Assembly (NCBI RefSeq): GCF_000767465.1
Contig: NZ_CP009291.1
Coordinates: 62,001 to 126,000 of the forward strand
Origin: Novosphingobium pentaromativorans US6-1
GTDB lineage: Bacteria; Pseudomonadota; Alphaproteobacteria; Sphingomonadales; Sphingomonadaceae
Direction: 5' to 3'
DNA: 64,000 bases
The notes under the pieces are model-generated. The model ran no database searches, was not told the DNA's origin, and was given only the letters and a program-made list of their open reading frames with translations. Both the position numbers and the translations under genes were made by a program. This document shows, one piece after another, positions 18,828-39,515 of the stretch. How positions within the stretch are numbered: the first letter of the stretch is position 1; every line of letters begins with the position of its first letter.

Positions 18828-21566
18828 ATGAGCGAACATCAAACTCATGACTTTCACGCCCGTTCGGTTGCTGACGTCGTGAATGCGCTGCATGCAGAGC
18901 CGCAGGGGCTGGATCCCGCCGAGGCGGCTGCGCGGCTGACGACGTACGGGGCGAACCGGTTGCCAGAGCCGCGACGGCGCGGACCCGTCAGCCGCTTCCT
19001 TCGACATTTTCACAACATATTGATCTATGTACTGCTGGCGTCGGCGGCGGTCACGGCCGCGCTCGGCCACATGATCGACACCGGGGTGATCTTGGCGGTC
19101 GTGGTGGCGAACGCGATCATCGGGTTTATCCAGGAAGGCCGCGCGGAAAACGCGATGGCCGCGATCCGCGGCATGCTCGCTCCCCATTCGGCGGTGCTTC
19201 GCGGGGGACAGCGCCAGACCATCGACGCCGTCGAGCTTGTACCGGGGGACATCGTTCTGCTCGAAGCGGGCGATCGCGTACCCGCAGACGTGCGGCTGAT
19301 CGAAGCCCGCGGCGTTAAGGTCGAGGAAGCAGTCCTGACCGGAGAGTCGGTTCCGGTGGACAAGGACCCTGCGCCGGTGCGACCGGATGCATCGCTTGGC
19401 GATCGAGCATCGATGGCTTTCAGCGGCACCCTGCTGGTGTCCGGCACTGCGCGCGGCCTTGTCGTTGCGACAGGAGGCGAGACAGAAATCGGCCGGATCA
19501 GCGGGATGCTGTCCCGTGTCGAAACGCTGACGACGCCGCTTGTGAGGCAGATGGACCTGTTCGCTCGCTGGCTCACGCTTTTCATTCTGCTCGTCAGTGC
19601 GGGTCTGCTCGTCTTCGGCATCTTCGTCCGTCACCTGCCGTTCGATGAGATGTTCATGATCGTCGTCGGCCTGGCGGTAGCGGCGATACCAGAGGGCCTC
19701 CCGGCGGTTCTCACCATAACGCTTGCCGTGGGCGTACAGGCCATGGCCAGGCGCAATGCCATCGTGCGTCGTCTGCCGGCTATCGAGACCCTGGGCTCCG
19801 TTTCGGTGATCTGTACTGACAAGACCGGAACCCTGACTCGCAACGAGATGATGGTGACTTCCCTGGTCTCCGCCGATGATACGTTCACCGTCGAAGGCAG
19901 CGGCTATGCTCCGCTGGGCTTGCTCAGAAGCGGCGTCGGAACAGCCGATCTTGCCAGCCATGCTGTACTTACCGAGTTCGCTCGCGCAGCGGCCGTGTGC
20001 AATGATGCCGCGCTCATCGAATCCGGAGGGTGCTGGCGCGTGGAGGGCGACCCCATGGAAGGGGCGCTGCTGACCCTCGCCGGCAAGATCATGGACGGCG
20101 CATCAGCGCCTTTCGCGCATCTCACACGTACCGATGCAATCCCGTTCGACGCGGAATGGCGCTACATGGCCGTGCTGAGCCATGACCACGAGGGGCACGG
20201 CTTCGTGCACGTCAAGGGAGCCCCCGAAGCCGTGCTAGCCATGTGCCGCGATGTGCGCAAGAGCGACGGCGGCACGATGCCGCTCGATCATTCATATTGG
20301 CTTGGCCGGATCGAGGAACTGGCAGGTCAAGGCCAACGAGTCATCGCTCTCGCGGGACGTACAATGCGGCAGGATGACACAGTCCTCAACACCGTCGACC
20401 TTCACGACAAACTCACGCTGGTTGGTCTCGTCGGGTTGATCGATCCTCCTCGGCCTGAAGCGGTCGAGGCCGTTGCCGAGTGCCATGATGCGGGGATCAG
20501 AGTGAAGATGATCACCGGCGATCATGGCGCCACCGCACGGGCGATTGCCGAACAGATCGGCCTGCGCAATTGCTCGCGTGTCCTGACCGGGGCGGACATC
20601 GGTATGATGTCCGACAGCGAGCTGGCCGATGCCGCGTCCGAGACGGATGTCTTCGCCCGGACGTCTCCCGCCGACAAGCTGCGGCTGGTTACCGCCCTGC
20701 AATCGCGGGGACTGATCGTGGCGATGACGGGTGACGGCGTTAACGATGCACCGGCGCTCAAGCGAGCCGACGCGGGCACGGCGATGGGGATCAAGGGCAG
20801 CGAAGCCGCCAAGGAAGCCTCGGAGCTGGTTCTTGCCGACGACAACTTCGCGTCGATCGCCGCTGCCGTCCGGGAGGGTCGAACTGTCTACGACAACATC
20901 AAGAAAGTAATCAGCTGGACCCTGCCAACGAATGCGGGCGAAGCCCTGACGATCATGGTCGCGTTGTTCGCCGGGATGGCGCTGCCCGTCACGGCCGTTC
21001 AGATCCTGTGGATCAATCTAATTACTGCCACGACGCTTGGCATTGCGCTAGCTTTCGAGCCCAGCGAGAAAGGCACGATGAAGCGGCCGCCGCGCCCGCG
21101 TGACGCCCCGTTGCTGTCCGGCGAACTCCTCTGGCACATCCTGCTCGTATCGACCTTGTTCGTCATCGCCGTGTTCGGTGTCTTCGCCTATGGCGTCGAT
21201 AAGGGATACCCGGTTGCGCTCGCCCAGACCATGGCGGTCAACACACTGGTCGTGCTGGAAATCTTCCATCTCTTCTTCATCCGCAACATCTACGGAACCT
21301 CGTTGACCTGGAGCGCGGTGCGAGGAACGCCGATGGTCTGGTTTGCGGTCGTTACCGTCACGGTCGCACAGTTCGCGATAACCTATGCATCGCCGCTTCA
21401 GGCCGTGTTCGGCACGCAGGCAGTGCCGTTCCTAGACGGCGTCATGATCGTCGGGGTGGGGGCGACATTCTTTGCCCTGATCGAGGTGGAAAAGCAGATG
21501 CGCCTTGCATTCCATCGCCCCGCGCGTCCGAAGGGGAACAGGCAGTCAGCGCACGCTGTTGGCTAG
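18828..21566 (+). CDS. P2-type cation-transporting ATPase (PacL/SERCA-like)
   Basis: 912 residues from ATG 18828; an AGGAGG lies about 15 bases upstream, a little far. All P-type signatures are present: TGES in the actuator domain, PEGLP in helix 4, the phosphorylated Asp in CTDKTGTLTRNEMM, MITGDHGATARAIA, and TGDGVNDAPALKRADAG. The N-terminal cation_ATPase_N domain (GLDPAEAAARLTTYGANRLPEP) and ~10 membrane helices place it in the P2 group (Ca2+, Na+/K+ or Mn2+ pumps). The ion cannot be fixed from sequence. It ends overlapping the 3' end of the CoA-transferase gene by 21 bases. Confidence 0.88.
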   Translation: MSEHQTHDFHARSVADVVNALHAEPQGLDPAEAAARLTTYGANRLPEPRRRGPVSRFLRHFHNILIYVLLASAAVTAALGHMIDTGVILAVVVANAIIGFIQEGRAENAMAAIRGMLAPHSAVLRGGQRQTIDAVELVPGDIVLLEAGDRVPADVRLIEARGVKVEEAVLTGESVPVDKDPAPVRPDASLGDRASMAFSGTLLVSGTARGLVVATGGETEIGRISGMLSRVETLTTPLVRQMDLFARWLTLFILLVSAGLLVFGIFVRHLPFDEMFMIVVGLAVAAIPEGLPAVLTITLAVGVQAMARRNAIVRRLPAIETLGSVSVICTDKTGTLTRNEMMVTSLVSADDTFTVEGSGYAPLGLLRSGVGTADLASHAVLTEFARAAAVCNDAALIESGGCWRVEGDPMEGALLTLAGKIMDGASAPFAHLTRTDAIPFDAEWRYMAVLSHDHEGHGFVHVKGAPEAVLAMCRDVRKSDGGTMPLDHSYWLGRIEELAGQGQRVIALAGRTMRQDDTVLNTVDLHDKLTLVGLVGLIDPPRPEAVEAVAECHDAGIRVKMITGDHGATARAIAEQIGLRNCSRVLTGADIGMMSDSELADAASETDVFARTSPADKLRLVTALQSRGLIVAMTGDGVNDAPALKRADAGTAMGIKGSEAAKEASELVLADDNFASIAAAVREGRTVYDNIKKVISWTLPTNAGEALTIMVALFAGMALPVTAVQILWINLITATTLGIALAFEPSEKGTMKRPPRPRDAPLLSGELLWHILLVSTLFVIAVFGVFAYGVDKGYPVALAQTMAVNTLVVLEIFHLFFIRNIYGTSLTWSAVRGTPMVWFAVVTVTVAQFAITYASPLQAVFGTQAVPFLDGVMIVGVGATFFALIEVEKQMRLAFHRPARPKGNRQSAHAVG

Positions 21567-22850
21567 CTCGTCCCGGAAGCGCGGGTGGGCAAGGCCTATC
21601 AACGCGTCGGCCCGCTGGTGCATCGATTTGCCCCTGAGGTCTGCCCAGCCATATTCGGTGACGACGATGTGCGTATCGTTGCGCGGTGTCGTTACCGGAC
21701 CGTCGAGAACTGGAACGATGCGGGACACGGCGCCGTCACGTGCGGTCGACTGGCAGGCAATGATCGATTTACCCCCTTTCGATGCGGTTGCACCCCTGAC
21801 AAAGTCCAATTGCCCGCCCGAACCGCTGTACTGCCGGCCCAGGCGGTGTTCCGAATTGCAGGCCCCGCCAAGATCGATCTGCAGTGTGCCGTTGACCGAA
21901 ACGACATTGTCGTTCTTCGAGATATGCCGGGGATCGTTGACGAGGTTCACCGGCAGCGAATGGAACGCGGGATTGTCGTCAAGGAAATCGTAGAACGCCG
22001 CATCGCCCATCGCGAAGGTGAACACGCTGCGTCCGCGGTAGGTCGCCTTCGCCATGTTGGTGACCGCGCCGCACTCGATGAGCCGCGCTAGCGCCGGAGT
22101 CATCAGTTCGGTATGGATGCCGAGGTCCTTGCGGTCCTCGAGCAGGCCGCATACAGCAGCGGGAAGCGTCCCGATGCCCATCTGCAAGCAGGCGCGATCA
22201 TCGATCATGCCGGCAATGATGCTGGCGATCACCTGTTCCTCAGCGCTCGGCGTACAGCAGACGATTTCGGGCAGGGGACAATGATTTTCGACGATTGCAT
22301 CGATTTCGGACACGTGAAGCAGGGAGTCCCCGAAGACCCTCGGCATGGCCGGGTTGACTTCAACTATGAGCCGGCGGGCGCTGCGTGCGGCCGCGGAGGT
22401 GTAGTCGTTGCTCGTGCCGAAGGTAAACCAGCCGTGGCGGTCCATCGCCGAGACCGTGGTGATGCAGGCGTCAAGTTGCAACCGCTCTGAAAGCAGTTGG
22501 GGTGAACCGCTGAAAGCCACCGGCACGAACTCGATCGGACCATAGGCGGATCCGGATGGATCGCCCTTGATCAATGTCCTTTCGATGTGGCTCAGGAACA
22601 TGCAGTGGGGGCGCACCCGATCAAGCAGATCTTCACGCAATACCGTCTTCCCGGCGGCTTCCAGAGAATGGAAGTACCACAAGCACAGATCGCTGAAGTC
22701 GGAGTTCTCTATCCGGCGACCAAGCGCTTCCAGCAGGGCAGGCGGCTCTGCGGTTGCCATCCCCATCGAAACGTTCATTCCCGACCCGATCTGCGCTACC
22801 GCGTCATCCGCGGTGGTCAGTTTGGCGCGATAGAGGTCTTGTGGGCTCAT
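21546..22850 (-). CDS. Acetyl-CoA hydrolase/CoA-transferase family protein
   Basis: 434 residues with the two-part CoA-transferase fold. Visible family motifs are the N-terminal IGSGMNVSMGMATAEPPAL, the central GIGTLPAAV, and the C-terminal VTEYGWADLRGKSMHQRADALIGLAHP segment (seen in pieces). The closest recognisable relatives are 4-hydroxybutyrate/acetate CoA-transferases and succinyl-CoA:acetate transferases. It probably moves CoA between acetate and another acid, conserving the thioester without ATP. That makes sense beside an acetyl-CoA synthetase and PDH genes elsewhere in the block. Last gene of the leftward group starting at 26053. Confidence 0.85.
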   Translation of the reverse strand: MSPQDLYRAKLTTADDAVAQIGSGMNVSMGMATAEPPALLEALGRRIENSDFSDLCLWYFHSLEAAGKTVLREDLLDRVRPHCMFLSHIERTLIKGDPSGSAYGPIEFVPVAFSGSPQLLSERLQLDACITTVSAMDRHGWFTFGTSNDYTSAAARSARRLIVEVNPAMPRVFGDSLLHVSEIDAIVENHCPLPEIVCCTPSAEEQVIASIIAGMIDDRACLQMGIGTLPAAVCGLLEDRKDLGIHTELMTPALARLIECGAVTNMAKATYRGRSVFTFAMGDAAFYDFLDDNPAFHSLPVNLVNDPRHISKNDNVVSVNGTLQIDLGGACNSEHRLGRQYSGSGGQLDFVRGATASKGGKSIIACQSTARDGAVSRIVPVLDGPVTTPRNDTHIVVTEYGWADLRGKSMHQRADALIGLAHPRFRDELANSVR

Positions 22851-22932: not shown

Positions 22933-23760
22933 TCACGACGGTTCCCGAACCATCAGGGTATCGCATGGAACGCACCGGAGGAGTGACTCAGCCATGCTGC
23001 CGATTACAGCAGGTACGAAGCCGGTGCGACCGTGAGTGCCTAATACGACGAGGTCTGCTCCAACTTTCTCGACCTCGTTCCAGACCACGGTATGGGTTTC
23101 ACCATAGCCGATGCTGGAAGAAAGGCGGACCCGCAAACTTTCAGGGATGGCGGCGTCTTGGACGAAGGCATCGAGTTCCGCCTGCGCTTCGCGTGTCACC
23201 TCGTCCTTCACTTCCTGTGATCGCAGCCAGCCTTCATAAGGGACGTGATAGGCGTTCACCAAATGGATAGCGGCATCCGGGAATAGCCTCGCAGCGGTGA
23301 GGAGCGCGTGTCGCGAACAACTCGAATGATCCGTGGCGACCAGAATGGTTGTGTAAGGCCCGTGCGGACGTTGCTTGACGACCAGTACGGGTGCAGTGGC
23401 GTGGCGCACAACGTGATCGACTGCCGTGCCGATGAAGTGATCGCCCAAGTGATTGAAACGCGCTACGCCCATTACGATCAACCCGCAATCAAGTGACGCT
23501 GCCGTCTGGACGATCGTGCTCGGCGCTGATCCATTCCCGGGGACTATGTCTACGTCCGCCAGTGGGTTGGGTAGAACAGTCCGGATTACTTGCTCGGCAG
23601 CCTTTGAATCACTCTCAAGCTTGGATCCATGTTCGAGCACATGAATGACTATCAGCCGTGTATCCCATTGCTTGGCGAGCATTGTCGCTCGGTCTACCGC
23701 ACGATCCGAGCGGGCGCTGAGATCGGTGGCGACGAGGATTGACTTTGCCATGCTTGCCAT
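22933..23760 (-). CDS. Tandem universal stress protein
   Basis: 275 residues from ATG 23758-23760 (AAGGAA 8 bases upstream; a TTG directly before it is also in frame). Both Usp domains keep good nucleotide loops: VMGVARFNHLGDHFIGT in the first (partly changed) and VLGTHGRTGFVPAVIGS in the second. The N-terminal KSILVATDLSARSDRAV is the standard Usp opening. It is 28 bases after the next USP gene in the same leftward transcription unit. Confidence 0.88.
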   Translation of the reverse strand: MASMAKSILVATDLSARSDRAVDRATMLAKQWDTRLIVIHVLEHGSKLESDSKAAEQVIRTVLPNPLADVDIVPGNGSAPSTIVQTAASLDCGLIVMGVARFNHLGDHFIGTAVDHVVRHATAPVLVVKQRPHGPYTTILVATDHSSCSRHALLTAARLFPDAAIHLVNAYHVPYEGWLRSQEVKDEVTREAQAELDAFVQDAAIPESLRVRLSSSIGYGETHTVVWNEVEKVGADLVVLGTHGRTGFVPAVIGSMAESLLRCVPCDTLMVREPS

Positions 23761-23788
23761 CAATCGAGTTCCTTCTCTTGGCCAATGT

Positions 23789-24625
23789 TCAGTGTGATAA
23801 GAGCACGGGCATGCGGAGATTTTCTATGATCCCGCGCGTGGCTCCTCCGAGTACGAAGTCCCGCATCCGTGAATGACCGAAGCCACCCATCACGAGTAAT
23901 CCTCCCCCGATCTTGAGGGATTCATTCTGTAGGGTTTCTGCAATAGGTTGTTGGCCGCTGCTGAATTCGACGAGCCCGACATTCGCTCCTTGAGTCGTAA
24001 GAAACTCTGCCAACTTCGACCCGCTAGCATTTTCCGGCAACGCCTTTTCATCCGTAACGACTGCGATTGTCACTCTTTCAGCGCGTTCAATAAACAGACG
24101 CGCATCGCTGACTGCTCGCGCTGCGACGCGGCTGCCATCCCAGGCGATTACTACCTGGTCCAGCTGGTCGATTGTGTGTGCTTCGGGAAGCAAGACAACG
24201 GGCCTGCCTGACCCGAAGATGAGGGATTCCGCCAATGACTGCATAAGCGCATCACCGGGCAAGAGCCCGACCAGTACGAGATCGGAAAACCGGGCCGCCA
24301 CGGCCGCTTCGTCGCCAAATGCCGATGGGAAGCACTCGAGTTCGCTTGAGTGGACTTCTACGCCAACCGCCTTGGCCTCACGGTCCAGCGCCTCCAGCAA
24401 CCGCGCACCCTTCTTGCGACAGTTTTCTCTTGCACCTGCCATGAGGGAAGGGACGTCGAGCACGAGATTGCCCAGCGCGCTTGAAACCTTGGGGAATTTG
24501 GCTGCCAGCACAAGCGCATGGATACGGCCATGCACGTGGTTCGTTACAGCCACCGCCTGAGACAGGAGCGCTTCGCTGTTGCCATCCGGATAGGTTTGTA
24601 GGGGCAGGAAAACTTGAACGGACAT
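23789..24625 (-). CDS. Tandem universal stress protein
   Basis: 278 residues. The C-terminal domain has VVIAWDGSRVAARAV at its start and VMGGFGHSRMRDFVLGGAT as the nucleotide loop, ending MPVLLSH. The N-terminal domain lacks a clear loop. It closely parallels the USP at 17910-18755 and probably arose by duplication. Transcribed leftward between the alcohol dehydrogenase (130 bases upstream) and another USP. Confidence 0.87.
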   Translation of the reverse strand: MSVQVFLPLQTYPDGNSEALLSQAVAVTNHVHGRIHALVLAAKFPKVSSALGNLVLDVPSLMAGARENCRKKGARLLEALDREAKAVGVEVHSSELECFPSAFGDEAAVAARFSDLVLVGLLPGDALMQSLAESLIFGSGRPVVLLPEAHTIDQLDQVVIAWDGSRVAARAVSDARLFIERAERVTIAVVTDEKALPENASGSKLAEFLTTQGANVGLVEFSSGQQPIAETLQNESLKIGGGLLVMGGFGHSRMRDFVLGGATRGIIENLRMPVLLSH

Positions 24626-24754: not shown

Positions 24755-25831
24755 TCACGGTGTGATTGCTACCTTGAGGACGCCGTCTCGCTGGTTGGCG
24801 AAGAGATCATATGCCTCCTCAATCTGGTCGAGGTTGAAGCGGTGTGTCACCAGCGGGCGCGTGTCGAGACGACCGGACGCGATCACCTCCATCAGTCGCC
24901 GCATGCGCTCCTTACCGCCGGGGCAGAGTGTCGTGACGATCGTGTGATCGCCTAGTCCCGCAAGGAAGGGGGCGAACGGAATTTTCAGGTCGCCGGAATA
25001 AACACCCAGCGAGGATAGCGTTCCGCCGGGGCGCAGGACACGCAGCGCCGCCTCGAACGTCTCCTGCCGCCCCAACGCCTCGATCGCAACATCACCGCCG
25101 CGACCATCAGTGAGACGCATGATCTCGTCGACTGGATCGACTTTAGTGAAGTCAACAACCTGGTCAGCGCCCATGCCGCGTGCAATGTCGACACGTGCGG
25201 GAACCGCCTCGACGCCTATGATCGTCGTCGCGCCCATCAGGCGTGCGCCCGCCGTGGCGCACAAGCCGATCGGCCCTTGCGCGAAGACGGCCACGGTGTC
25301 GCCGATCGTCACTCTGCCGCGCTCGGCTCCCGAAAATCCCGTCGACATGATGTCGGGACACATCAGGACCTGCTCGTCACTTAGACTGTCCGGAATAGGC
25401 GCGAGATTGGTCATGGCGTCGGGCACGAGCAGATACTCAGCCTGCGCGCCATCGATCGTGTTCCCGAAACGCCAGCCACCCATTGGCTTGAAACCGTGCC
25501 TGCTGCCCGCGCCGTCCTGCGAGTGGCAGCCGCACAGACATGCGGCACTATGTCCGCTCGGCGTGATAGCCCCGGCGATGACACGCTGCCCTTCATGATA
25601 GCCTTGAACAGCTGATCCGAGCTTCTCGATGACTCCGACCGGTTCGTGACCGATCGTAAGGCCCGGCGTGACTGGATACTCGCCCTTCAGGATATGGATG
25701 TCGGTTCCGCAGATCGTCGTCGTCGTGATGCGAATCAAGGCATCCAGCGGACCTACGTCCGGAATGGTTTTTTCGTCGAGGACGATCCGACCAGGTTCGA
25801 CGAAGATCGCCGCTTTCATCTTCTGCGCCAT
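24755..25831 (-). CDS. Zinc-dependent alcohol dehydrogenase (MDR family)
   Basis: 358 residues; AGGAG 6 bases before the ATG. Catalytic zinc ligands are visible in CGTDIHILKGEYP and GHEPVGVIEKLG. A Cys-containing insert (ACLCGCHSQDGAG) stands where the structural zinc site usually lies, but the normal four-Cys spacing is altered. The Rossmann segment is VAVFAQGPIGLCATAGARLMG. The relatives are secondary-alcohol/isopropanol or NAD-linked alcohol dehydrogenases. Likely role is redox balance by aldehyde or ketone reduction under low oxygen. Substrate unknown. It starts 9 bases after the HTH gene and shares its FNR-type promoter. Confidence 0.87.
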   Translation of the reverse strand: MAQKMKAAIFVEPGRIVLDEKTIPDVGPLDALIRITTTTICGTDIHILKGEYPVTPGLTIGHEPVGVIEKLGSAVQGYHEGQRVIAGAITPSGHSAACLCGCHSQDGAGSRHGFKPMGGWRFGNTIDGAQAEYLLVPDAMTNLAPIPDSLSDEQVLMCPDIMSTGFSGAERGRVTIGDTVAVFAQGPIGLCATAGARLMGATTIIGVEAVPARVDIARGMGADQVVDFTKVDPVDEIMRLTDGRGGDVAIEALGRQETFEAALRVLRPGGTLSSLGVYSGDLKIPFAPFLAGLGDHTIVTTLCPGGKERMRRLMEVIASGRLDTRPLVTHRFNLDQIEEAYDLFANQRDGVLKVAITP

Positions 25832-25840
25832 GGTTCACTC

Positions 25841-26053
25841 CTAATCTTGGCCGGCCTGGGAAGCCACTTCGTAGGGAGGACGGTTGGCATGCCGCAGCAG
25901 AAACTGCTCGAGATCGGCAGGTGCGATCCGCCATTCGCGCCGCAAATCGACGGCGCGCAGATCGCCCGACTTGATCCAGGAGCGCACGGCAATTTCCCCG
26001 ACCTTCAAGAGGTCGGCGATATCCTTCACGGACAAAAACTGGCGGCTCAGCAT
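25841..26053 (-). CDS. Excisionase-family (MerR-like) HTH protein
   Basis: 70 residues; GAGG lies 7 bases before the ATG. The whole protein is one winged-helix domain: FLSVKDIADLLKVGEIAVRSW, then LRREWRIAPADLEQFLLRH, the standard Xis/MerR-like pattern. Such small proteins can be transcription factors rather than recombination factors. Here it leads an operon with alcohol dehydrogenase under an FNR-like promoter, and no integrase is nearby, so a local regulatory role is more likely. Confidence 0.82.
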   Translation of the reverse strand: MLSRQFLSVKDIADLLKVGEIAVRSWIKSGDLRAVDLRREWRIAPADLEQFLLRHANRPPYEVASQAGQD

Positions 26054-26079
26054 TTGACTGCCTCTGAGTTGCGATCAAC

Positions 26080-26128
26080 GCATTTCATCATAGCTGATGC
26101 TGCTTTTGGGATATTTGACCGAGATCAA
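26080..26128 (-). promoter_or_regulatory. Leftward FNR-type class II promoter for HTH-adh
   Basis: Reading leftward, the FNR-type box (26128 to 26115) is followed by a -10 hexamer TATGAT (26092 to 26087). A predicted start near 26080 puts the box centre at -41.5, the class II FNR position. This leaves a ~27-base leader before the HTH start at 26053. No -35 match is needed for such promoters. Confidence 0.6.
26115..26128. promoter_or_regulatory. FNR/FixK-type box shared by two divergent promoters
   Basis: TTGAC-CGAG-ATCAA fits TTGAY-N4-RTCAA. The centre (26121.5) lies exactly 32 bases from the centre of a -10-like hexamer on each side (TATGAT leftward, CATAAT rightward). One bound dimer could therefore activate both operons. 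It is the best regulatory signal in the window. Confidence 0.7.
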
Positions 26129-26163
26129 CGCTTCTGATGATCTGAATGTTCATAATGTTCGTT
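26115..26163 (+). promoter_or_regulatory. Rightward FNR-type class II promoter for the USP-ndvB-acs-pdh operon
   Basis: Reading rightward, the box is followed by CATAAT (26151-26156), five of six matches to TATAAT, with a predicted start near 26163. The remaining ~275 bases before the USP start at 26438 form a long leader. An in-frame ATG at 26171 exists but has its GGGAG only one base away. Confidence 0.6.
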
Positions 26164-26437
26164 AGGGAGCATGGTCGACCAAGCATCTGGTCGGCACAAG
26201 CAACCGATAGTATCGTTTTTTGGCAAAGTTTCGGTTCGACTCGGAAGGGTTCTTGTGCGGAACCGATGGGCAACCGAAGCTCAGGTGCCCCTGAACCCGC
26301 TCGAGCAGAAAGCTGTTGCTCAGCGCAGGCCACACCGCCGAAAGCCCACTTCGGTGATGTTGCGTATATTCGATAGTGGCGTGATCGCCGATCCTGATTT
26401 GGTTGGCGTCATGTGGAACCGGTCGAAGGAGGCGATT

Positions 26438-27496
26438 ATGAACTGCCAGTCCAACGAAATGGACGAACCTGCCACCAGGTCAGCCTTCTTCAACGATGAT
26501 CGAACGTGCGCCGTCCTGGACCGATCCGTCGAAAAAGCCCGGAGCGGCATTCGAATTCTCGTGTGTGTCGATGACAGTCCAGCAAGCAGTTCGGTTGTTC
26601 TTCACGCGATCGCGGCGGGTGAAGGACTGAGTCTACCCTTGACGCTCGCCCGAGTGGTCGAGACCGTGCCGGGATCCGGTCGACCGCCCGATCCCATCGA
26701 GTGGCAGATCCGGCGCGACGAGCATCGTCTGCAATTGCGAAAGATAGCCGCATTTCCGTCGGACAATCCTGCACAGATAGACACTGTCCTGTTGACCGGG
26801 TCTGCAGCCGACCGGCTGAATGATTGGGCAATCGAACATCGAGCGCCACTCCTCGCGCTCGCAACTCACGGGCGTGTGTCGAAGCATGTCGGGCTTGGCG
26901 CGACCGTCCAGAATATCCTTGCGCGGGGTTCGACTTCCTTGTTGCTGGTTCCGCCGGAGCCCATTCCAGCGCGCGAGAAGATCATCTATCGCAAACTGCT
27001 TGTGCCGCTCGACGGATCGTGTCGGGCAGAAAGCGTTCTACCGTTGGCTTCGCGCATTGCCCGCAAGCACGGCGCGGAGATTGTGCTTGCCCATGTGGTG
27101 CCGAAGGCAACGCTCGTCGCCGGCCGAGCAGAACTGGAATCCGAGCTTTGCGGCAAACTTGAGGCCTACAACCAGCGCCGCGCGCGCGAATATCTAGATG
27201 ACCTGCGCGCCAAGTTGCGCGCCGACGGCGTTCGCGCGAGTACGATCGTAGCGCCGAACGGGGATGCCCGGACGGAACTGCGGCTCTTGGCGAAGCGGCA
27301 GCAGATCGATCTCATTGTCCTTTCGTCACACGGTCAGAGCGGATTGATGGACATGCCCTGCGGTAGCGTCACCGAATATCTGGCGGCTCATGCGCCCGCG
27401 CCGATGCTGATCGTGCGCCCGGGCTTCATACATGGGTTCAGCGCTCTGGAAGCTCGGCCGATGCCCGTGCTCCAGGTTCAGCCGCTCGCAAACTAG
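26438..27496 (+). CDS. Tandem universal stress protein heading the glucan-synthase/PDH operon
   Basis: 352 residues from ATG 26438, which has AGGAGG 5 bases upstream. The frame stays open back to an ATG at 26171, but that extra 89-residue stretch looks non-protein-like. Two Usp domains: the first with LATHGRVSKHVGLGAT, the second with LSSHGQSGLMDMPCGSV as nucleotide loops. A ~40-residue N-terminal extension precedes the first domain, which starts at GIRILVCVDDS. The stop TAG shares a base with the GTG of ndvB. Confidence 0.85.
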   Translation: MNCQSNEMDEPATRSAFFNDDRTCAVLDRSVEKARSGIRILVCVDDSPASSSVVLHAIAAGEGLSLPLTLARVVETVPGSGRPPDPIEWQIRRDEHRLQLRKIAAFPSDNPAQIDTVLLTGSAADRLNDWAIEHRAPLLALATHGRVSKHVGLGATVQNILARGSTSLLLVPPEPIPAREKIIYRKLLVPLDGSCRAESVLPLASRIARKHGAEIVLAHVVPKATLVAGRAELESELCGKLEAYNQRRAREYLDDLRAKLRADGVRASTIVAPNGDARTELRLLAKRQQIDLIVLSSHGQSGLMDMPCGSVTEYLAAHAPAPMLIVRPGFIHGFSALEARPMPVLQVQPLAN

Positions 27497-30400
27497 TGGC
27501 CGAACACGATCCAAATTTGGGCTGGTTTCTGGAACAGTCCGCGCGAGAATTAGGTTCCCGTCATCGCCTCTCGGATCAGGCGGCCCTGCCGATCCCGGCG
27601 TGGGCCGGTCTCGGCGCGGGGTTTGATTGGCTGCACGATGTTCGCTGCGCCTGTTCCGCAGCCCCGCCCGAGGCAAGCAAGGCCGCCGAATGGCTTCTCG
27701 ACAACGACTATCAGATTCACCGGGCATTGCGCCAGATACGTGAGGACCTGCCCAAGAGCTTCTATGCGCGCCTGCCTGCGCTCGCTTCCGAACCGGGAGA
27801 ACGCCTGCCTCGCGTCTTCGTGCTGGCTCACGCAATGCTGCATACCACCAAGCTGCAGGTGTCGCTCGCCAATGCGGTACGGTTCGTTGCGGCCTATCAA
27901 GACGAATCCGCCCTGACGATCGCCGAACTCTGGGCGTTTCCTACCATGCTGCGGATCGCCAGTTTCGAAATCCTCGTCTCCGCCTTGTCACCATTGGTTT
28001 GCGGCGAGCGCAAGCTGCCCTTCCGGATCACCGATTGGGCGCTCGATCCGGAATCGCTCGACCCGACAGAGCGTGTGGCGCGCTCGGTCTCGAACCTCGC
28101 CGCGATCACCGCAATTCCCTGGGAGCAGTTCTTCGACCGGACAAATCGTGTCGAGGAGATACTCACCAAAGACCCTTCCGGTTTCTACAGCCAGATGGAT
28201 TTCGAGAGCCGCGATCGATACCGACGCCGCGTCGAAGATCTGGCTCGCTACAGTTCGACCAGCGAGTCCGACGTCGCTGCCGAAGCTGTCGAATGCGCGG
28301 CTGCTCACCAGTCTGACCGGGCCCCGGGGCATGTCGGCCATTGGCTCGTGGGACCCGGTGCGCCTGAGCTCGAGACCCGCACCGGCGCGCGCTTTCCTTT
28401 CAAGCAAAAGCTGAAGCGGCTGGTTCTCCGAAATCCGGGAAAGTTCTATGCAGCTGCGCTTCTGCTGGCGGGCCTCGGCGCGTTCATCATTCCGGGAGCC
28501 TATCTCGCCTCGGTCGGGGCGGACCTGTCCGGCTGGATCGCCGGACTGCTGCTGTCCTTCATCCCCGCATCGATCCTCGCAATCGCGGTGGTTCACTGGA
28601 TGATCACACGCTGGCTGCCGCCGCGTGCGCTCTACAAGCTGGATTTCAGCAATGGCCTGGGCGAAGGCTGCCGCACGATCGTCGCCGTCCCCGTGATCGT
28701 GGCGAAGGCTTCCGATGCAGCGCGGCTTGCCGAGCAGATGGAGTCGCACTGGCTGGCCAATGCCGATCCGCTGCTTCAGGTGGCGTTGCTGGCCGATCTG
28801 CCGGATGCGGTAGAAGAACGTCTTCCGGGCGACGAGGAAGTCGTGGCCGAGCTGGTCAGCCAGGTCCGCAGACTGAACGAGCGTCACCAGATGGATGGCC
28901 GGGGGCCGTTCCATCTGTTGGTCCGGCCAAGGCTCTACAATCCTGTCCAGGGCTGCTGGCTTGGCTGGGAGAGAAAGCGCGGAAAGCTCGAGCAATTCAA
29001 CCGCCTCCTGATCGAGGGGGAACGCTCCGCCTTCAGCATGCATGTCGGAGATGGTGCGGCACTTGAAGGCGCCCGGTTTGTCGTGACCGTCGATGCGGAC
29101 ACGATGCTCCCGCCGGAAGCCGTCGCCAGGCTGGCCGGCGTGCTGGCCCACCCGCTCAACCGGCCGGTGGTGGACCATGCCACGGGCAGGATCGTCTCGG
29201 GCTATTCAATCATCCAGCCGCGGGTCGAGATCTCTCCCCAATGCGGCGTTCGGACATTGTTCACCCGGCTTTTCACCGGCGATACGGCGATCGATATATA
29301 CAGCCGCGCGGTATCGGACGTCTATCAGGACCTGTTCGGTGCGGGCATCTTCGTCGGCAAGGGAATCTACGATCTCGCGGCGTTCCATGAAAGCGTCGAC
29401 GGCCGGGTGCCCGAAAACAGAATTCTCAGCCATGACCTTTTCGAAGGGATTCACGGGCGGGCAGCGCTCGCGACAGACATCGTCCTGTATGAAGGATTTC
29501 CGGCGAGCTATCCGGAGTATGCCTCGCGGATGCACCGCTGGATCCGGGGGGACTGGCAACTCCTGCCCTGGCTGGGACGGAAGGTGCCCGCGGCCGACGG
29601 GTCGCGTTTCGCCAACAGGCTCAGCGGGGTCGACCGCTGGAAAATGATCGACAACCTCCGCCGTAGCCTGGCGGCACCAGCGCTCCTGCTGCTCGCGCTT
29701 GGTGACTGGTTCTTCCTGCCCGGCTCCCCGTGGTTCTGGACCCTGCTGGTCGTGTTCGCGCCCGGTTTCCAGCTGTTTACCGAGATTGTCAGCGGTCTCG
29801 CTCGCGGCCGCCGGCGGGGGCGGCGCTGGGTCTGCTGCCCCGCCTGTCCGATCAGACCGGCCGCTGGCTGCTCGCCATCGTCTATCTTCTCTACGAAGCA
29901 GTGCTCTCGCTCCATGCGATCGGCATCACCCTCTGGCGCCTACTCGTGAGCCGCCGCCGGATGCTGCAGTGGACGACTGCCGCCCAGGTGGCCGCAAAAA
30001 TGAGAGGGCGAGACACCCGTACTGCTGCCTGGCGGGAGATGTGGTGGGTTCCTGTCATTTCGCTCGCGATTGCGGTTGGTCTGGCTTTCGTCCGGCCTCA
30101 TGCGATGCCGGCCGCACTGCCATTACTCCTGCTGTGGATCGCATCGCCTGAGATCACCTTCCGGATCGGAAGACCCCGCAGGTCGGAGAGCGAGCCTTTG
30201 ACTGCGGACCAGCGTCATTTTCTGCGACTGCTCGCGCGCAAGACGTGGTTCTTCTTCGAAACCTTTGCCGGTCCCGACGACAACTGGCTCCCGCCCGACA
30301 ACTACCAGGGCGAACCCCATGAGGAGACTGCGCACCGCACCTCTCCCACTAATATCGGAATGTTGCTGCTTTCGACCGCCGCGGCCTGGGATCTCGGTTA

Positions 30401-33400
30401 TATCGGACGCAAGGAGCTGGCGACCCGCACGCGTAATATCCTCGACAGTCTCAACCAGTTGGAACGGTACCGCGGTCACTTCTACAACTGGTACGACACG
30501 ATGAGCCTGAGGCCACTCGAGCCGCGGTATGTATCGACGGTTGACAGCGGCAATCTCGCCCTGAGCCTGATCGGCTATGCCGAAGCGCTGCGCCAGGCGG
30601 CTGACGTCAAGCAGTTGGAGCCGCAAAGATGGGACGGTCTGAACGACGTGCTCGCACTGCTCGACTCTGCACTGGCGGTCGTGGATGCAACCGAGGCTCG
30701 CGAGGACATCGCCGAAATCTGCGACCGATTGATGATTCTGAGGAGCAATCCGGATTCGCGCCGTGCGCAGCTTGAGTCGATGCTACAGTCCGACGTTCCC
30801 CGACTGGAGGCGCATGTAGCCGCTGCGGTGGCGCCGCCGAATGCCGTGCCCGTCGAAACCCTTCGCGAACTGCACGCCTGGATCGATCGCTTTCGGCAGC
30901 AAGTCAGAACCATGATGCGGGACCTCGATGCACCGGGGCAGGGGGAAGAGGATTTCGAAGCCATGGCCGCAGAAACGGCAGCTCTGGCATACGGGATGGA
31001 TTTCGCGCCGCTTTACTGTGCCGAGCGCGGCCTGTTCCACATCGGCTACAATGCCAGTTCCGGCAAAATCGACCAGCACTACTACGACCTGCTCGCCTCC
31101 GAGGCGCGGATCGCCAGCTTCTTCGCGATCGCCAAGGGAGATGTGCCGGTCGAACACTGGTTTCATCTCGGCCGACCGATCACGCGCAGCGGTCGCCGCA
31201 TCGGGCTGATCTCCTGGAACGGCTCGATGTTCGAATATTTGATGCCGCGCCTGTTCCTGCGCGGCGAGCCGGAAACGCTTCTTTTTGAGAGCGAGCGCAC
31301 GGCCGTCCGCATCCAGCGAACCTATGGCGACCGGCATGGCGTTCCCTGGGGCATATCGGAATCCGCCTACGCTTCCCGCGATCCCGATCATCGCTATCGT
31401 TACCAGGCATTCGGTGTTCCCGGACTCGGCCTGAGACGTGGTCTGGCCCGCGATATGGTCGTGGCACCCTACGCATCGGCTCTGGCGCTTGCGGTGTCAC
31501 CGGCCGAGGCCGCAGGCAACCTGGCCGAGTTGTCGCGGCACGGGGCCGGGGGACGGTTCGGGTTGTTCGAAGCGGCGGACTTTACCCCGGCACGGCGAGC
31601 ATCCGGCGAGCGCTTCGCGCCTGTCGCCGCCTATATGGCGCACCACCAGGGAATGATCCTTTGCGCGATTGCCAATGTACTGGGCGACGATGTCCTGGTG
31701 CATCGCCTTTTGCGGGACTCTCGCCTGAACCTCGTTTCATTGTTGCTGAGCGAGCGTCTTCCGACCGAACTGCCCGCCGAGATCGAGCGGCTGGAAGAAC
31801 TTGAACGGCCAAGCGAGGAAGAGAGGAGCGCTCAGCCGATCGGTTCGTGGGAGCCGCCCACGTCTGCGCTGTTCCCGCAAGTCCTGCTGCTTGGCAACGG
31901 GCGGCTTTCGAGCTGGATATCGGAAGGCGGTGGAGGAGGACTGCGCTGGCACGGCCAGGCGCTGACACGGTTCGCGCCAGATGTGACGCGCGACGCGGAT
32001 GGCTTCTGGATATATGTCGCCGATGACGAGACCGGCGCCCTGTGGTCGGCGACGCGGCAACCGACCCGGGCAAAGCCGGATGAATACCGAGCGGTCTTCC
32101 ATCCTCACATGGCCGAGTTTCATCGCCGTGACAACGGAGTGGAATTGCGCATGGAGACCGGCGTGGCCGCCGGCGACGATATTGAAATACGCCGTATCGT
32201 CATTGCCGACGAGAGCGGCAGGCCGCGTTCGCTGCGTCTCACGAGTTATGCAGAAGTCGTGCTTGCGCCGCCGCTCGAGGATGAGCGGCACCCAGCCTTC
32301 AGCAAGCTCTTTGTGACGAGCGATCGCATCCCGCATCTGGGCGGGCTCATGCTTTCCCGGCGGCCGCGCAGTCCGCGCGAAGCCCCGCCCGTGTTGTTGC
32401 ACTTTGCGCTCGGGCCTGACGGGCCGATCCAGGGCGCGGGGTTCGAGTCCGACCGGCGCATATTTGTCGGACGTGGAAACGATCCGCAACGGCCGGCGGG
32501 GGCTACGGCCGATCTCGGCGGCGGCAGCGGTTGCACGCTCGACCCGGTCGCCGCGCTGCAGGTCAAACTGGATCTCGCCCCTTACGAGCGCCGTGAAATA
32601 TACTTTCTCACGGTCGCGGCGGCGAGCCCGGAATCCGCGACGGAGATCGCGGAGCGCCATCTAACCCCGGTGTCAGTCGATTGGGCCTTGCGGGACGCCG
32701 CACTGGAGACGGGACGGGCGGTTCGGCATCTGCGCCTGGGACCGCGCAGCCTGCGCCGTGCCCAGACGCTCGGATCGCTGCTGATCCACTCCAACGGCGC
32801 GCTTCGGGCAAATTCGCCAGGCGCTCGCGCCAATCGGCTGGGTCAACCATCCCTGTGGGGAATGGCGCTATCCGGCGATCTTCCGATCGTTCTGCTGCAA
32901 ACCGTGCAAAGCAGCGGCGAGATGCTCGAGGAGCTTGTGGGCGCCCACCAGTTTTGGTGCCGCATGGGCCTCGAAACCGACCTCGTCGTCCTGCAGTCCG
33001 GCGGGTCGGCCTACATCGAACCCCTGCGCGACGAAGTGCTCGAGTCACTGCGCAATATCGGCGCGATCGAAATGCTCGGACGCAAGGGCGGCATCCACCT
33101 GTTGTTCTCCGACCAGATCGGCTCCGATCAGGTCCACTTGCTCGAGGCCGTCGCGGCCGTCGCGCTCGACGAGGCGCAAGGCAGCCTGGCGGAGCAACTG
33201 GATCTGGCCAGTGTGAGGCCCAGTCCATTGCCGCTCTTTATTCCCTCCATGCCGGAATATGACACGGCGGACCGGGCCGGAGAGAGACCGGTCGATCTGC
33301 TGTTCGACAACGGCATCGGCGGATTTTCCGCAGATGGCAGGAACTATGTGATTCATCTCGAAGCGGGGGAATCCACGCCTGCGCCGTGGTCCAACATTCT

Positions 33401-35747
33401 TGCCAATGACGATTTCGGCTGTCTGGTCACCGAAGCCGGCGGCGGTTTTTCCTGGGCGATAAACAGCGGCGAAAACAGGCTCACACCGTGGACGAACGAC
33501 CCGGTTACGGACAGACCGACCGAGATAGTCTATCTCCGCGACGAGGAAACTGCGGCAGTCTGGAGCGTGACACCCGCACCTGCGGGTCATGACACGGCAA
33601 CCCGGATCCGCCATGGCGCGGGCTACAGCGAATGGCGCAAATGCTCGCACGGGCTGGATCAGGAACTGCTCGTCTTCGTGCCCACCGACGCTCCGGTGAA
33701 GATCATGCGCCTGCGCATACGCAATCAATTATACCATCATCGGCGCCTGACCGCGACCAGCTATGTCGAATGGTTGCTCGGATCACTGCCCAGCATGGCC
33801 CGTCCCCATGTGCGGTGCGGTTATGACGCCGGCACCGAGGCGCTCCTGGCTTACAATCGGTGGAATCCGGACTTCGCCGATCGGGTCGCCTTCCTCACCG
33901 CAAGCAGGAAATCTCACGGCTTCACGACGGACCGGCAGGAATTTCTGGGCTTCGAGGCCGATCTGGCCCGCCCTGCCGGTCTCGGTCGCTGGGGCCTGAG
34001 CGGCGACATCTCGGGCGGGCTTGATCCCTGCGCCGCCTATCAGGTCCACCTAGACCTCGCTCCGGGCGAGACCGAGGATGTCGTCTTCGTTCTTGGGCAG
34101 GGCAGGGACGAGTCCGAGGCCCTGGCGCTGGCCGGACGCTGGCGCGATCCCGAACAGGTGGAACGGGCGCTGCACCAGCTTCACGAGCATTGGGACATCT
34201 TGCTCGGCGCAGTCGAGGTGCGCACACCCGATCCGGCGTTCGATCTCATGGTCAATCGCTGGCTTCCCTATCAGAGCCTCTCGTCGCGAATTCTTGCCCG
34301 CACCGGCTTCTACCAGGCGAGCGGTGCAATTGGTTTTCGCGACCAGCTGCAGGATGTCCTCGCCTTCTTGCACAGCGATCCGCGGCGCGTTCGCGACCAT
34401 ATCCTGCTTTGCGCGGCCCACCAGTTCGAAGAAGGCGACGTGCTCCACTGGTGGCATCCTCCCTCCGATCGCGGCGTTCGAACTCGTTGCAGCGACGACA
34501 TGCTATGGCTTCCCTATGCCGTCGGGACCTATGTCTCGGCGACCGGCGACCTATCCATTCTTCACGAACGGTTGCCCTTCCTTGACGCACCGCCTCTCGC
34601 CGCAGGAGAAGAGGATAGATACGCATCTTTCGAACGCACCGTTACCCGCGAGCCGCTCATCGATCATTGCGAGCGGGCTCTGGAACGCGCTCTGGTCGAA
34701 GGGGTCCATGGACTGCCTCTGATCGGCGGGGGCGACTGGAACGACGGCATGAACAGGATCGGACAGGCCGGCCGAGGCGAGAGTGTCTGGCTGGCTTGGT
34801 TCGCCTCGGTCACGGCCGAAGCCATGGCGGACCTCAATTCGCGCGTCGGCCGCGGAGGCGAGGCCGAACGGTGGCGCAAGCGTTCGCGGGAACTCTGCCG
34901 GAGCGCGGAAGAAGCCGGATGGGACGGTTCTTGGTATCGCCGCGCCTACGATGACAGCGGTCACCCGTGGGGTTCGGCGCAGAGCGAGGAATGCAGGATC
35001 GATTCGATCTCGCAGTCATGGGCCGCTTTCGCCGGCGCCGATCCGGCGCGAGTGGACATGGCCCTTGCTTCGGCATTCACTGAACTCGTCGATGAGAAGC
35101 ATCGAATTGCGAGACTGCTGTGGCCTCCATTCGATCGCGCGCTGCACGATCCGGGCTATATCAAGGCCTATCCGCCCGGAATTCGGGAGAATGGTGGGCA
35201 ATACACGCATGCGGCCGCATGGCTCGGTCTTGCCCTTGCCAGAACCGGCAAGCCGGATGCGGCGATGGACATATTCCAGATGCTCAGCCCGATTGGGCGC
35301 ACCGCCAGCCGCGCCAGCGCCGAGCATTACCGCGGGGAGCCCTATGTCGTGGCCGGTGACATTTCGGCCGGAGAACAGCACGGCGGGCGCAGCGGCTGGA
35401 CCTGGTATACCGGTTCCGCCGCGTGGACATGGCGTTTCGCCGTCGAAGGCATGCTCGGCCTGAGCCTGGTCGATGGGCGGATTCGCTTCGACCCCTGCAT
35501 TCCATCGGGCTGGCCCGGTTACGAGGCGAGGATCAGGCGCCCGCACGGAACATTGAAGGTGCGCGTCGAGAGGGTGGATGGTGGCTTGGACGAGCGGCTG
35601 GACTTGAATGTCGGCGGCGAAAGCCATCCCCGGTCCGAGATCGATTTCCCCGATGACGGTAGCGAAAGAAACGTGACAGTGCGGGTGAGAGGCGGCACGA
35701 CGGGGACGGAAAAGTATTCCAGCCCGTTCGCCGGAGTAGTCGAATGA
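27496..35747 (+). pseudogene. ndvB: Cyclic beta-1,2-glucan synthase (NdvB/ChvB type), frameshifted by one missing G
   Basis: Two frames form one ~2750-residue protein. The first (27496 to about 29815) has an N-terminal domain and a membrane GT84 glucosyltransferase with VTVDADTMLPPEA and SRMHRWIRGDWQ. The second (from about 29820) adds membrane helices, a glycoamylase-like domain (YNASSGKIDQHYYDLLASE, WNGSMFEYLMPRLF), then a GH94 phosphorylase domain with ASGAIGFRDQLQDVLAF and catalytic GGGDWNDGMNRIG. One added G in the GGGGG at 29816-29820 joins them. NdvB makes and cyclises periplasmic beta-1,2-glucan from UDP-glucose. It is unusual for this gene to sit between a USP and acetyl-CoA synthetase. 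Confidence 0.88.
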
Positions 35748-37540
35748 GGGAAGGGCACTCGAGTGATTCCGGCCAGCCCGCCAGCGCCTTGATCGCAAAG
35801 AATCCCGCAAGTCTGACCCCGCCTCCTCATCTGCTCGACTATGATCGCGAGTGCGCGGAATTCTCATGGGAAAAGGCCCGCGCCCTGCTCGATGGTCTGC
35901 CCCAGGGCAGGGGGCTCAACATCGCCCATGAAGCCGTCGATCGGCATGCCGCTGGCCCCAAAGCAGACAGAGTGGCCTTGCGCTGGATCGGAAAGGCGGG
36001 CGCTCGACGGAACCTCACCTATCGCGAACTTCACGAGGCGACGAATCGCTTCGCCAATGCCCTGAAGGCAATGGACGTGGAGCGGGGAGAGCGTGTATTC
36101 GTGCTGATGGGCCGGCTGCCCGAACTCTATGTGGCGGTGCTGGGCGCGCTCAAGGCGGGTTGCGTGGCATCTCCCCTGTTCTCGGCGTTCGGGCCCGAGC
36201 CGATTGCCCTTCGCCTGGAAATTGGCGATGGGCGCGTACTGGTCACAACTCCTGGTCTCTTTAACCGCAAGGTGGCCGCCATCCGCGACCAGCTCCCCGG
36301 TCTCAGGCATGTCATTCTGGTCGGCGAGGAGCAGGCCAAAGGCGACGGCTTGCACGACTGGGCGGAGGTGGTCGAAACCGCAGACAACGACTTTGTCATC
36401 GCCCCCACGGACCCCGAGGACATGGCGCTGCTGCATTTCACCAGCGGCACCACCGGCCGGCCGAAGGGGGCCATTCACGTCCATGAGGCAATCGTCGCCC
36501 ATCACGTGACCGGACGCTATGCCCTGGACCTGCACGACGACGATGTCTTCTGGTGCACCGCAGATCCGGGCTGGGTCACCGGAACGAGCTATGGCATCCT
36601 TGCTCCACTGACCAACGGCGTGACTAGCATCGTCCTCGAGGCGGAATTCGATGCGGCGATGTGGCTCGACATCCTGGAGCAGGAGCGCGTCAGCATCTGG
36701 TATACTGCGCCCACCGCAATCCGGATGATGATGCGACAGGGAACGGAACTGGCCCGGGGGCGCGACCTTTCTGCGTTGCGTTTCATGGCCAGCGTCGGTG
36801 AGCCGCTCAACCCCGAGGCGGTCATCTGGGGCCAGCAGGCCTTCGGTATCCCCTTTCACGACAACTGGTGGCAGACGGAAACCGGCGGCATCATGATCTC
36901 CAACTTCGCTGCGCTGGACATCAAGCCCGGCTCGATGGGGCGGCCGATGCCCGGGATCGAGGCAGCGATCGTCCGGCGGCTTGAGGATGGCGACGTTTCG
37001 ATGATCGAAGAAGCGATGGTTGACGGTGAGCTGGCGTTGCGGAAAGGCTGGCCGTCGATGATGCGCGGCTATCTCCATGAGGAGGAGCGCTACCGCAAAT
37101 GCTTCGCCGGCGACTGGTACCTCACCGGCGATCTCGTCCGGCGCGACAGCGATGACTATTTCTGGTTCGTCGGCCGGGCGGACGACGTGATCAAGTCGGC
37201 CGGCCACCTGATCGGTCCGTTCGAAGTCGAAAGCGCACTCATGGAGCATCCCGCCGTGGCCGAGGCCGCGGTAATCGGAAAGCCCGACCCCACCATCGGC
37301 GAAATGGTCAAGGCTTTCGTGAGCCTGCGTCCCGGACACCTGCCGGACGAAGCCATGCGGCGCGAACTGCTGGGCCATGCCCGCAAGTGCCTGGGCGCCG
37401 CCGTCGCGCCCAAGGAGATCGACTTCCGCGAGAACCTGCCCAAGACCCGTTCGGGCAAGATCATGCGCCGACTGCTCAGGGCTCGCGAACTGGGCCTGCC
37501 CGAAGGCGACCTCTCGACGCTCGAAAGCGACGAGAGATGA
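35744..37540 (+). CDS. acsA: Acetyl-CoA synthetase (acetate--CoA ligase, AMP-forming)
   Basis: 598 residues. Adenylate-forming motifs: [20 protein letters not shown] (A3 P-loop) near residue 230, [10 protein letters not shown] (A5), [26 protein letters not shown] (A7/A8, in pieces), and the C-terminal [13 protein letters not shown] with the acetylatable Lys of A10. The WWQTETG motif is specific for acetyl-/propionyl-CoA synthetases. It is shorter than E. coli Acs and closer in length to AcsA-type ligases. Start ATG overlaps the ndvB stop (ATGA) and its own stop overlaps pdhA. Confidence 0.9.
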
Positions 37541-38523
37541 GCGCGAAGCTGATGATCGACCGCAGTCACGGTCAGCATCTCTTTCGCGAGATGCTGCGCA
37601 TCCGCCGCTTCGAGGCGAAATGCATGGAACTCTACCAGGCGCAAACGATCAGGGGCTTCCTTCACCTTTACGACGGGCAGGAGGCCGTCGCGGTCGGGAT
37701 CATGCAGGCGCTGGACGAGCGGGACGCCGTGGTCGCCACCTACCGCGATCACGGCCATGCGATCGCCCGCGGGCTGGGGATGGGGCCGATCATGGCCGAA
37801 ATGTACGGCAAGCTTGAGGGGTGCAGCCGGGGCCGGGGCGGATCCATGCACCTGTTCGACCGCGCTTCGCGCTTCCTCGGCGGCAACGCCATCGTCGGCG
37901 GCGGGCTCCCGCTGGCGGTCGGCACCGCCATGGCCGACCAGCAGTTGCACCCCGGCGCCGCGACGGTGTGTTTCTTCGGAGAGGGCGCTGCCGGAGAGGG
38001 CGAATTCCACGAAAGCATGAACCTGGCTGCCCTGTGGAAGCTGCCTGTCCTGTTCGTGTGCGAGAACAATCTCTATGCCATGGGCGTGCCGCTGGAAGTG
38101 GCCGAGGCCGACACCGAGATCATCCACAAGGCCAAGGGTTACAACATGCCTGGCGAGCAGGTCGACGGCATGAACCCTGTGGCGGTCGAGGTCGCGGCGC
38201 GCCGAGCCGTGGAATCGATCCGGGCGGGCAACGGTCCCTGGTTCCTCGAATGCCGCACCTACCGTTTCCGCGCCCATTCCATGTTCGATGCCCAGCAGTA
38301 TCGCACCAAGGAGGAAGTGGCGCACTGGAAGGAGCGCGATCCGATCGTGCGGATGCAGGCCTGGCTGCTGGAGGCGCACCTGATGACACCGGCGGAATTG
38401 GATGAGATCGAGGCGGCGGTCGATACCGAAGTCGCGGCCGCCGTCGCCTTTGCCGAAGCCGGGACCTGGGAGAGCGTGGACGAACTTGAGCGCTTCGTAA
38501 CTATGGACGAGGTTCCATCGTGA
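37537..38523 (+). CDS. pdhA: Pyruvate dehydrogenase E1 component, alpha subunit
   Basis: 328 residues from ATG 37537 (ATGA overlap with acsA). The thiamine-diphosphate motif is complete: [20 protein letters not shown], then [15 protein letters not shown]. Substrate-binding [13 protein letters not shown] and [11 protein letters not shown] segments are typical of PDH/acetoin-dehydrogenase E1alpha. With the next two genes it would decarboxylate pyruvate (or acetoin or a branched oxo-acid) and acetylate E2. The acetyl-CoA context favours pyruvate or acetoin. Confidence 0.9.
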
Positions 38524-39515
38524 ACGAACAGGCACCTGATCGCATGACCTATCGGGAGGCTTGCCGACAGGCGATCCGCGACGCGCTCATCCGCGATCCT
38601 CGTTGCTTCGTCATGGGCGAGGATGTCGGTCTCTACGGCGGCTGCTATGCCGTGACCAAAGGTTTGCTCGAGGAATTCGGGCCGGAACGCATTCGTGACA
38701 CACCCCTTGCCGAAAGCGTTATCACGGGAGCCGGGATTGGCGCCGCCATCGGCGGATTGCGTCCTGTCGTCGAGATCATGACCTGCAATTTCAGCCTGCT
38801 GGCGCTCGACCAGATCGTGAACAATGCCGCCACTATTGCGCACATGTCTGGCGGGCAGTTCGCGGTGCCGCTGGTCATCCGGATGGCAACCGGCGGCGGC
38901 AGGCAACTCGCTGCGCAGCATTCGCACAGCCTGGAAGGCTGGTATGCGCATATTCCGGGCATCACGGTGCTGGCTCCCGGCACGATCGAGGATGCGCGCC
39001 TTATGCTTGCCGCAGCACTCGCTGACCCTAACCCTGTTTTGATCTTCGAGCACGTCGTGCTCTACAATGCCGAAGGCGAACTCGATCCCGCCATCACGTC
39101 AGTCGATATCCGCAAGGCCAGGATACGCCGGGAAGGCAGGGACCTGACGATCCTGACCTACGGCGGCAGTCTGCCCAAGGCGCTGGCCGCCGCAGGAGAA
39201 CTGGCGGCAGCGGGCATAGAGGCGGAGATCGTCGATCTGCGCGTCCTGCGTCCTCTCGACAATGAGACCATCTATGCTTCGGTCGGCCGCACCCGGCGCT
39301 GCGTGATCGTCGACGAGGGCTGGCGCAGCGGCTCGCTGTCTGCCGAACTTGCCGCCCGTCTTGCAGAAGACCTGTTCTTCGAGCTCGACGCGCCGATCCG
39401 CCGGGTCTGCACCCGCGAAGTGCCGATTCCCTACGCAGCGCACATGGAGGACGCGGCCCTGCCGCAGGTGGCGGACATCGTCGAGGCCGCGCGGGGCTTG
39501 GTAAGGCCGGAATGA
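38520..39515 (+). CDS. pdhB: Pyruvate dehydrogenase E1 component, beta subunit
   Basis: 331 residues from GTG 38520 (GTGA overlap with pdhA). Shows the transketolase-type pyrimidine-binding domain ([55 protein letters not shown]). The C-terminal domain carries [18 protein letters not shown] and VDEGWRSGS. It forms the alpha2beta2 E1 heterotetramer with the gene before it. Acetoin dehydrogenase beta subunits are very similar, so substrate is not settled by sequence. Confidence 0.9.

Follow-up and report, generated by a model that had tools for sequence, protein, structure and literature searches.

The region between positions 26080 and 26163 of the window (the whole stretch of 64,000 nucleotides of Novosphingobium pentaromativorans US6-1 DNA that was analysed) raises the question of whether a single FNR-type box can serve two promoters that face away from one another. 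Judged from sequence, we consider it probable that this region is a bidirectional FNR-dependent promoter, in which two predicted class II promoters share one box. The elements concerned are the following.

26115..26128, no strand assigned: FNR/FixK-type box TTGACCGAGATCAA, a perfect match to the alphaproteobacterial palindrome TTGAY-N4-RTCAA
26087..26092, minus strand: -10-like hexamer TATGAT of the leftward promoter, with a predicted start near 26080 and the box at -41.5
26151..26156, plus strand: -10-like hexamer CATAAT of the rightward promoter, with a predicted start near 26163 and the box at -41.5

TATGAT and CATAAT each agree with TATAAT at five of six positions and each has its centre 32 bases from the centre of the box which, given the usual distance between a -10 element and the transcription start, places the box at -41.5 in both directions. 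The leftward promoter accordingly combines the perfect palindrome with TATGAT at class II distance, and the rightward promoter has CATAAT at the same distance, both starts being predicted. The sequence-only reading had pointed to this box and to a -10-like hexamer 32 bases away on each side, and its coordinates and spacing were confirmed; its placement of the box at -41.5 both ways, i.e. at class II spacing, holds by the hexamers, with predicted starts. No sigma-70-type hexamer pair with at least 9 of 12 matches was found in 25830-26560, which is weak evidence as shuffled sequences give just 0.3, and from which it would follow that each promoter should need the bound dimer. A sub-threshold match to a eukaryotic snoRNA, the one Rfam match, was set aside as chance.

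The genes that would be served by the two promoters are listed below.

25844..26053, minus strand: HTH_17/excisionase-family small DNA-binding protein of 70 codons, first leftward gene (Pfam HTH_17, E 1.1e-11; TIGR01764)
24755..25831, minus strand: zinc-dependent alcohol dehydrogenase (adh), second leftward gene (Pfam ADH_N and ADH_zinc_N), many orthologues of which have an upstream box
23789..24625, minus strand: universal stress protein (USP)-like, leftward group (Pfam Usp, 22.7 bits, slightly under the 24-bit cut-off)
22933..23763, minus strand: universal stress protein, leftward group (Pfam Usp, 2.9e-40)
21546..22850, minus strand: acetyl-CoA hydrolase/CoA-transferase, leftward group (Pfam)
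26438..27496, plus strand: two-domain universal stress protein, first rightward gene (Pfam Usp, 3.3e-39), putative start
27496..40693, plus strand: cyclic-glucan-synthase-like (two frames), AMP-binding (acs-like), and E1 alpha, E1 beta and E2 of a 2-oxoacid dehydrogenase, a candidate shared transcript

The start of the HTH_17 gene lies 68 bp from the box centre, and its stop codon occupies 25843-25841. The open frame of the rightward USP opens at ATG 26171, while the sequence AAGGAGG precedes ATG 26438; the start is therefore placed at the latter codon, where the protein probably begins, and the leader would then measure approximately 275 nt. Further along, the cyclic-glucan-synthase-like gene (27496-35747, plus strand) is divided between overlapping frames, one (27496-29949) encoding a glycosyltransferase domain and the other (29730-35747) GH94 domains, a split that reflects either a frame change or an assembly error.

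The genome itself contains FNR-type regulators, as an FNR-dependent class II promoter presupposes. A search restricted to the Pfam Crp signature (PF00325) returned two proteins, L001 and L002, both of which carry a CxxCx7C motif near the N-terminus, a later cysteine and the sequence ETVSR, the cysteines including residues 23, 26, 34 and 122 in L001 and residues 4, 7, 15 and 103 in L002. Displacement of the third cysteine by two residues is given as typical of the FnrN group in the accessible text of PMC7713065, and the cysteine spacing of both proteins matches that description. The FnrL model scores best for both, yet remains under its cut-off of 300.

Perfect boxes are rare in the window, where two occur against 0.16 expected and where two were reached in none of 100 shuffles. 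Genome-wide, 19 perfect boxes were counted against seven for the reversed pattern, a background at which some of the 19 may have arisen by chance. When the flanks of all 19 (15 loci and four further stretches) were compared, a 5/6 hexamer no more than one base away from class II spacing was found at the window box alone, where both flanks have one; among the 36 flanks of the other 18 boxes, none reaches 5/6 within the same tolerance, one reaches four matches and the rest have three or fewer. In random first-order versions of the window flanks, a fraction of 3e-5 of the trials had 5/6 hexamers on both sides at the exact position, and a fraction of 2.2e-4 had them when a tolerance of one base was allowed, figures that are post hoc and concern one site; the earlier view had likewise been that a two-sided match is unlikely to arise by chance. 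The second perfect box in the window, TTGACTCCAGTCAA, lies at 17565-17578 between an NfeD-type gene (16045-17457, minus strand) and a USP-like gene (17910, plus strand), and its flanking hexamers are weaker, at 4/6 and 3/6.

Relatives of the small HTH protein were used to follow the arrangement in other genomes. A DNA search of 41 genomes of the genus (its own included) returned the window itself only, and a protein search of 195 genomes of the genus returned the window and four weak matches of 35-41% identity, on the basis of which the cassette looks accessory within the genus. A genome scan with the HTH protein yielded two loci: L024, from a Bauldia MAG, in which a USP gene is divergent to an HTH-adh pair with a perfect box between them, and L025, a contig-end fragment without an upstream region. 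A plasmid search gave 12 records, eight at 47-54% identity and four weaker, of which seven loci were analysed (left out were H23, whose record length and match scores are the same as those of H22, and the records from Azospirillum, Alicyclobacillus and, twice, Streptococcus). All seven have a USP gene and the HTH gene in divergent orientation, and the hosts belong to the Rhodobacterales, Hyphomicrobiales and Rhodospirillales; the gene behind the HTH gene is a cation:proton antiporter in L094-L097, a P-type ATPase in L098 and L099, and an oppositely oriented chemotaxis gene in L100. A profile search of 385 genomes led to 30 analysed HTH loci; tblastn detected no neighbouring USP, adh or ATPase gene in 19 of them, and four have a perfect box (the window, L102, L115 and L130).

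Taken across these searches, 16 loci (window included) have a USP match on the strand opposite the HTH gene and upstream of it. A perfect box is present in eight (the window, L024, L096, L097, L098, L099, L100 and L102) and absent from the other eight (L094, L095, L103, L112, L113, L114, L119, and L129, which has a site with one mismatch); the count includes L103 and L129, where the USP match ends 500-630 bp from the HTH gene and adjacency is uncertain. Retention of the box and of the two hexamers in relatives, the check proposed with the sequence-only reading, was examined in this way: half of these loci have a perfect box and half lack one, and several hexamers are weak. In the eight loci with a box, its centre lies 63-70 bp from the HTH start as placed by homology; the annotated start of L097 is 18 bp further, giving 88. 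The locus L130 was kept out of the count because adh lies between the HTH gene and the USP match: in L130:286-1437 (turned to the HTH strand) adh adjoins the HTH gene on the opposite strand, a perfect box separates the two, the USP match lies beyond adh and a P-type ATPase match lies behind the HTH gene, so that the partner differs and the box is kept. In L117 an adh match lies behind the HTH gene and there is no box. The boxless USP/HTH intergenic regions L094:3868-4000 and L095:3871-4000 have a duplicated -10-like stretch upstream of the HTH gene (TTATAATACGCTATAATA; CTATACTACGCTATATTA), perhaps an FNR-independent promoter.

The position of both hexamers was then scored in ten loci where a perfect box lies close to a relative of the HTH gene (L115, L130 and the eight USP/HTH loci), which had been picked on the box and not on the hexamers. 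Matches to TATAAT were summed, taking the best of two adjacent positions, and class II spacing (-40.5/-41.5) was compared with other shifts. Of 59 shifts, the class II position ranked first on either side, with 35 on the HTH side (mean of the others 19.8) and 35 on the partner side (mean of the others 17.9), the shifts not being independent and the set of relatives being small, with some near-copies. With the near-copies L098 and L100 and the window itself removed, the remaining seven loci scored 23 against 13.9 on the HTH side, tied with a neighbouring shift, and 22 against 12.9 on the partner side, and none of the 59 shifts scored above the class II position on either side. In the Frigidibacter locus the USP-side hexamer is TATAAT and the HTH-side one TATCCT; weak hexamers also occur among the relatives (TGTCTT, CAGCCT and CAAGCT). 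A six-locus alignment of the intergenic region has 13 invariant columns, nine of them in the box and two corresponding to the A and T of the HTH-side -10 element. The window and its box-bearing relatives thereby share the layout of a bidirectional site, namely a palindrome approximately 40 bp from two divergent starts, these being predicted.

The adh gene provided a contrast set of 11 non-window orthologues with at least 76% identity, lower-identity matches having been left out. A box with at most one mismatch lies 54-88 bp upstream in eight of the 11, against 0.036 expected per locus, and the three without are L032, L034 and L035. Among the eight, the class II position on the adh side ranks second of 34 with a neighbouring shift first, and on the far side there is no peak, the class II position ranking 37 of 59. 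This one-sided peak may fit a second hexamer that accompanies the divergent partner gene. On plasmids, adh matches were found in 60 records, and five of the nine that were analysed have a box (at most one mismatch) within 420 bp; the other four are L056 (Sinorhizobium meliloti), L088, L090 and L092.

At the level of the class, a looser mirror criterion was applied to 172 alphaproteobacterial genomes, with xAxxxT on both sides at class II spacing. In these genomes mirror sites were not significantly enriched, being found at 28 of 3304 boxes (the window's included) against 2 of 596 reversed-pattern sites (p = 0.30). Twenty-five mirror loci were analysed individually, some of which look as if they sit between low-oxygen gene pairs. 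By their translations, the mirror-type box in L073 and L083 (box at 1529) lies between what we take to be nitrate/nitrite-transporter-like and CRP/FNR-like genes, and that in L085 presumably lies between moaA-like and moaB-like genes.

Were the bidirectional promoter to function as proposed, a dimer of an FNR-type protein, L001 or L002, would bind the single box when oxygen is low, presumably sensing it through an iron-sulfur cluster, and the bound dimer would stand in for a -35 element at either class II promoter. The leftward output would comprise the HTH_17 gene, adh, the two USP genes and the CoA transferase, and the rightward output would comprise the USP and the genes behind it, with predicted starts and putative operon extents. 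In established class II geometry the polymerase covers the activator box, so two polymerase footprints would overlap on this box and one copy of the DNA would be expected to fire one way at a time. The polymerase would thus use one side of the dimer at a time, and the two groups would share an oxygen signal and compete for its use. The sequence supports the sequence-only reading insofar as one dimer may switch both groups; that they switch together would apply to the population only, and HTH_17, not adh, is the first gene leftward.

On a rival explanation only the leftward HTH-adh promoter would be a true FNR class II promoter, CATAAT being a fortuitous AT-rich match and the USP being driven from elsewhere within its long leader; the one-sided class II pattern of the adh orthologues speaks for it. 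The probable USP start at 26438, some 275 nt past the predicted transcription start, points the same way, as the uncertain start and a leader of perhaps this length may imply a different promoter for the USP, and blastp shows that the USP encoded at 22933-23763 resembles the HTH-divergent USP of the relatives more than the window's own divergent USP does. We nevertheless regard this explanation as unlikely: CATAAT stands at the exact position, the partner-side peak persists in the seven loci without the window, with the TATAAT of Frigidibacter among them, and 25830-26560 offers no other sigma-70 pair, though shuffles give just 0.3.

Two further explanations concern the box itself. The protein that chiefly binds it might be a different member of the CRP/FNR family, FixK- or Dnr-like and responding to NO or another signal instead of oxygen, with the same two-way class II mechanism; the principal activator of the bidirectional site in D. 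shibae is DnrD, according to the accessible text of PMC5398030, and the PF00325 search of the genome may have left further family members uncounted. The FnrN-group cysteine spacing of L001 and L002, for which FnrL is the best model though below the cut-off of 300, makes this somewhat improbable in our view. That the box is a repressor site or a silent one, flanked by unused hexamers, appears very unlikely given that class II spacing is seen on both sides and recurs among the relatives, even if some FnrL-bound sites in R. sphaeroides repress or gave no regulated transcript, as described in the available part of PMC2908626. We therefore retain the bidirectional, FNR-dependent promoter as the preferred interpretation. 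If it is true, USPs, alcohol dehydrogenase, and acetyl-CoA and 2-oxoacid dehydrogenase enzymes would be tied to one oxygen signal through one site, and the related divergent promoters with and without the box would constitute a natural set for measuring competition for a single FNR dimer.

A broader and doubtful idea is that of a mobile alphaproteobacterial cassette made up of the HTH_17 gene, a stress partner and the mirror FNR promoter, in which the partner (USPs, adh) and the gene behind the HTH gene (adh, cation:proton antiporter, P-type ATPase) change while the promoter stays, and whose HTH protein might act back on the shared region so as to set the direction. No description of a USP/HTH_17 cassette was found in the accessible text of the few papers returned by searches of the open-licence literature.

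Single sites serving two promoters are known in other systems. E. coli CRP bound at one target reportedly activates divergent promoters, to go by the title of a study by El-Robh and Busby from 2002; this resembles the present case in having one dimer and two promoters, the protein being CRP rather than FNR. In R. sphaeroides, one FnrL-bound site between RSP0466-4 and RSP0467-8 is listed for both of these operons, each marked as increased by FnrL, the spacing to -10 elements not being given in the accessible part of the source (PMC2908626). The core FNR regulon predicted in the same source includes a uspA, and its predicted FixK list contains a zinc alcohol dehydrogenase; uspA is described as a direct FnrL/FNR target in three species in the accessible text of PMC4634722. 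The Fnr consensus of Sphingopyxis granuli, TTGAc/t-N4-g/aTCAA, which is mostly located at approximately -41.5 and includes a uspA site at -41.5, is matched by the window box, and two FNR genes are present in both organisms; the authors of that study raise the possibility that ompW, divergent to ccoN, is served by the ccoN site as well, whereas a mirror pair with two mapped class II starts does not appear in the accessible text (PMC7713065).

The closest likeness is to D. shibae, where, in the accessible text of PMC5398030, the starts of nirS and nosR2 stand 39.5 and 41.5 bp, respectively, from one Fnr/Dnr site, lacZ is expressed in either direction from a 118-bp fragment and mutation of the palindrome ends abolishes nirS expression, and where hemA3-dnrE also has a bidirectional FnrL/Dnr site. 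Both there and in the window a single FNR-type palindrome lies between divergent genes, approximately 40 bp from both starts; the D. shibae sites differ in serving denitrification and heme genes, in the box TTAAC-N4-GTCAA and in having mapped starts, where those of the window are predicted (PMC5398030). The mirror FNR architecture is therefore already known from D. shibae, and what is new here is its recurrence beside stress-protein genes in several bacterial groups; since the principle is established, what gives the present locus its value is the cassette that recurs and the small HTH protein encoded in it.
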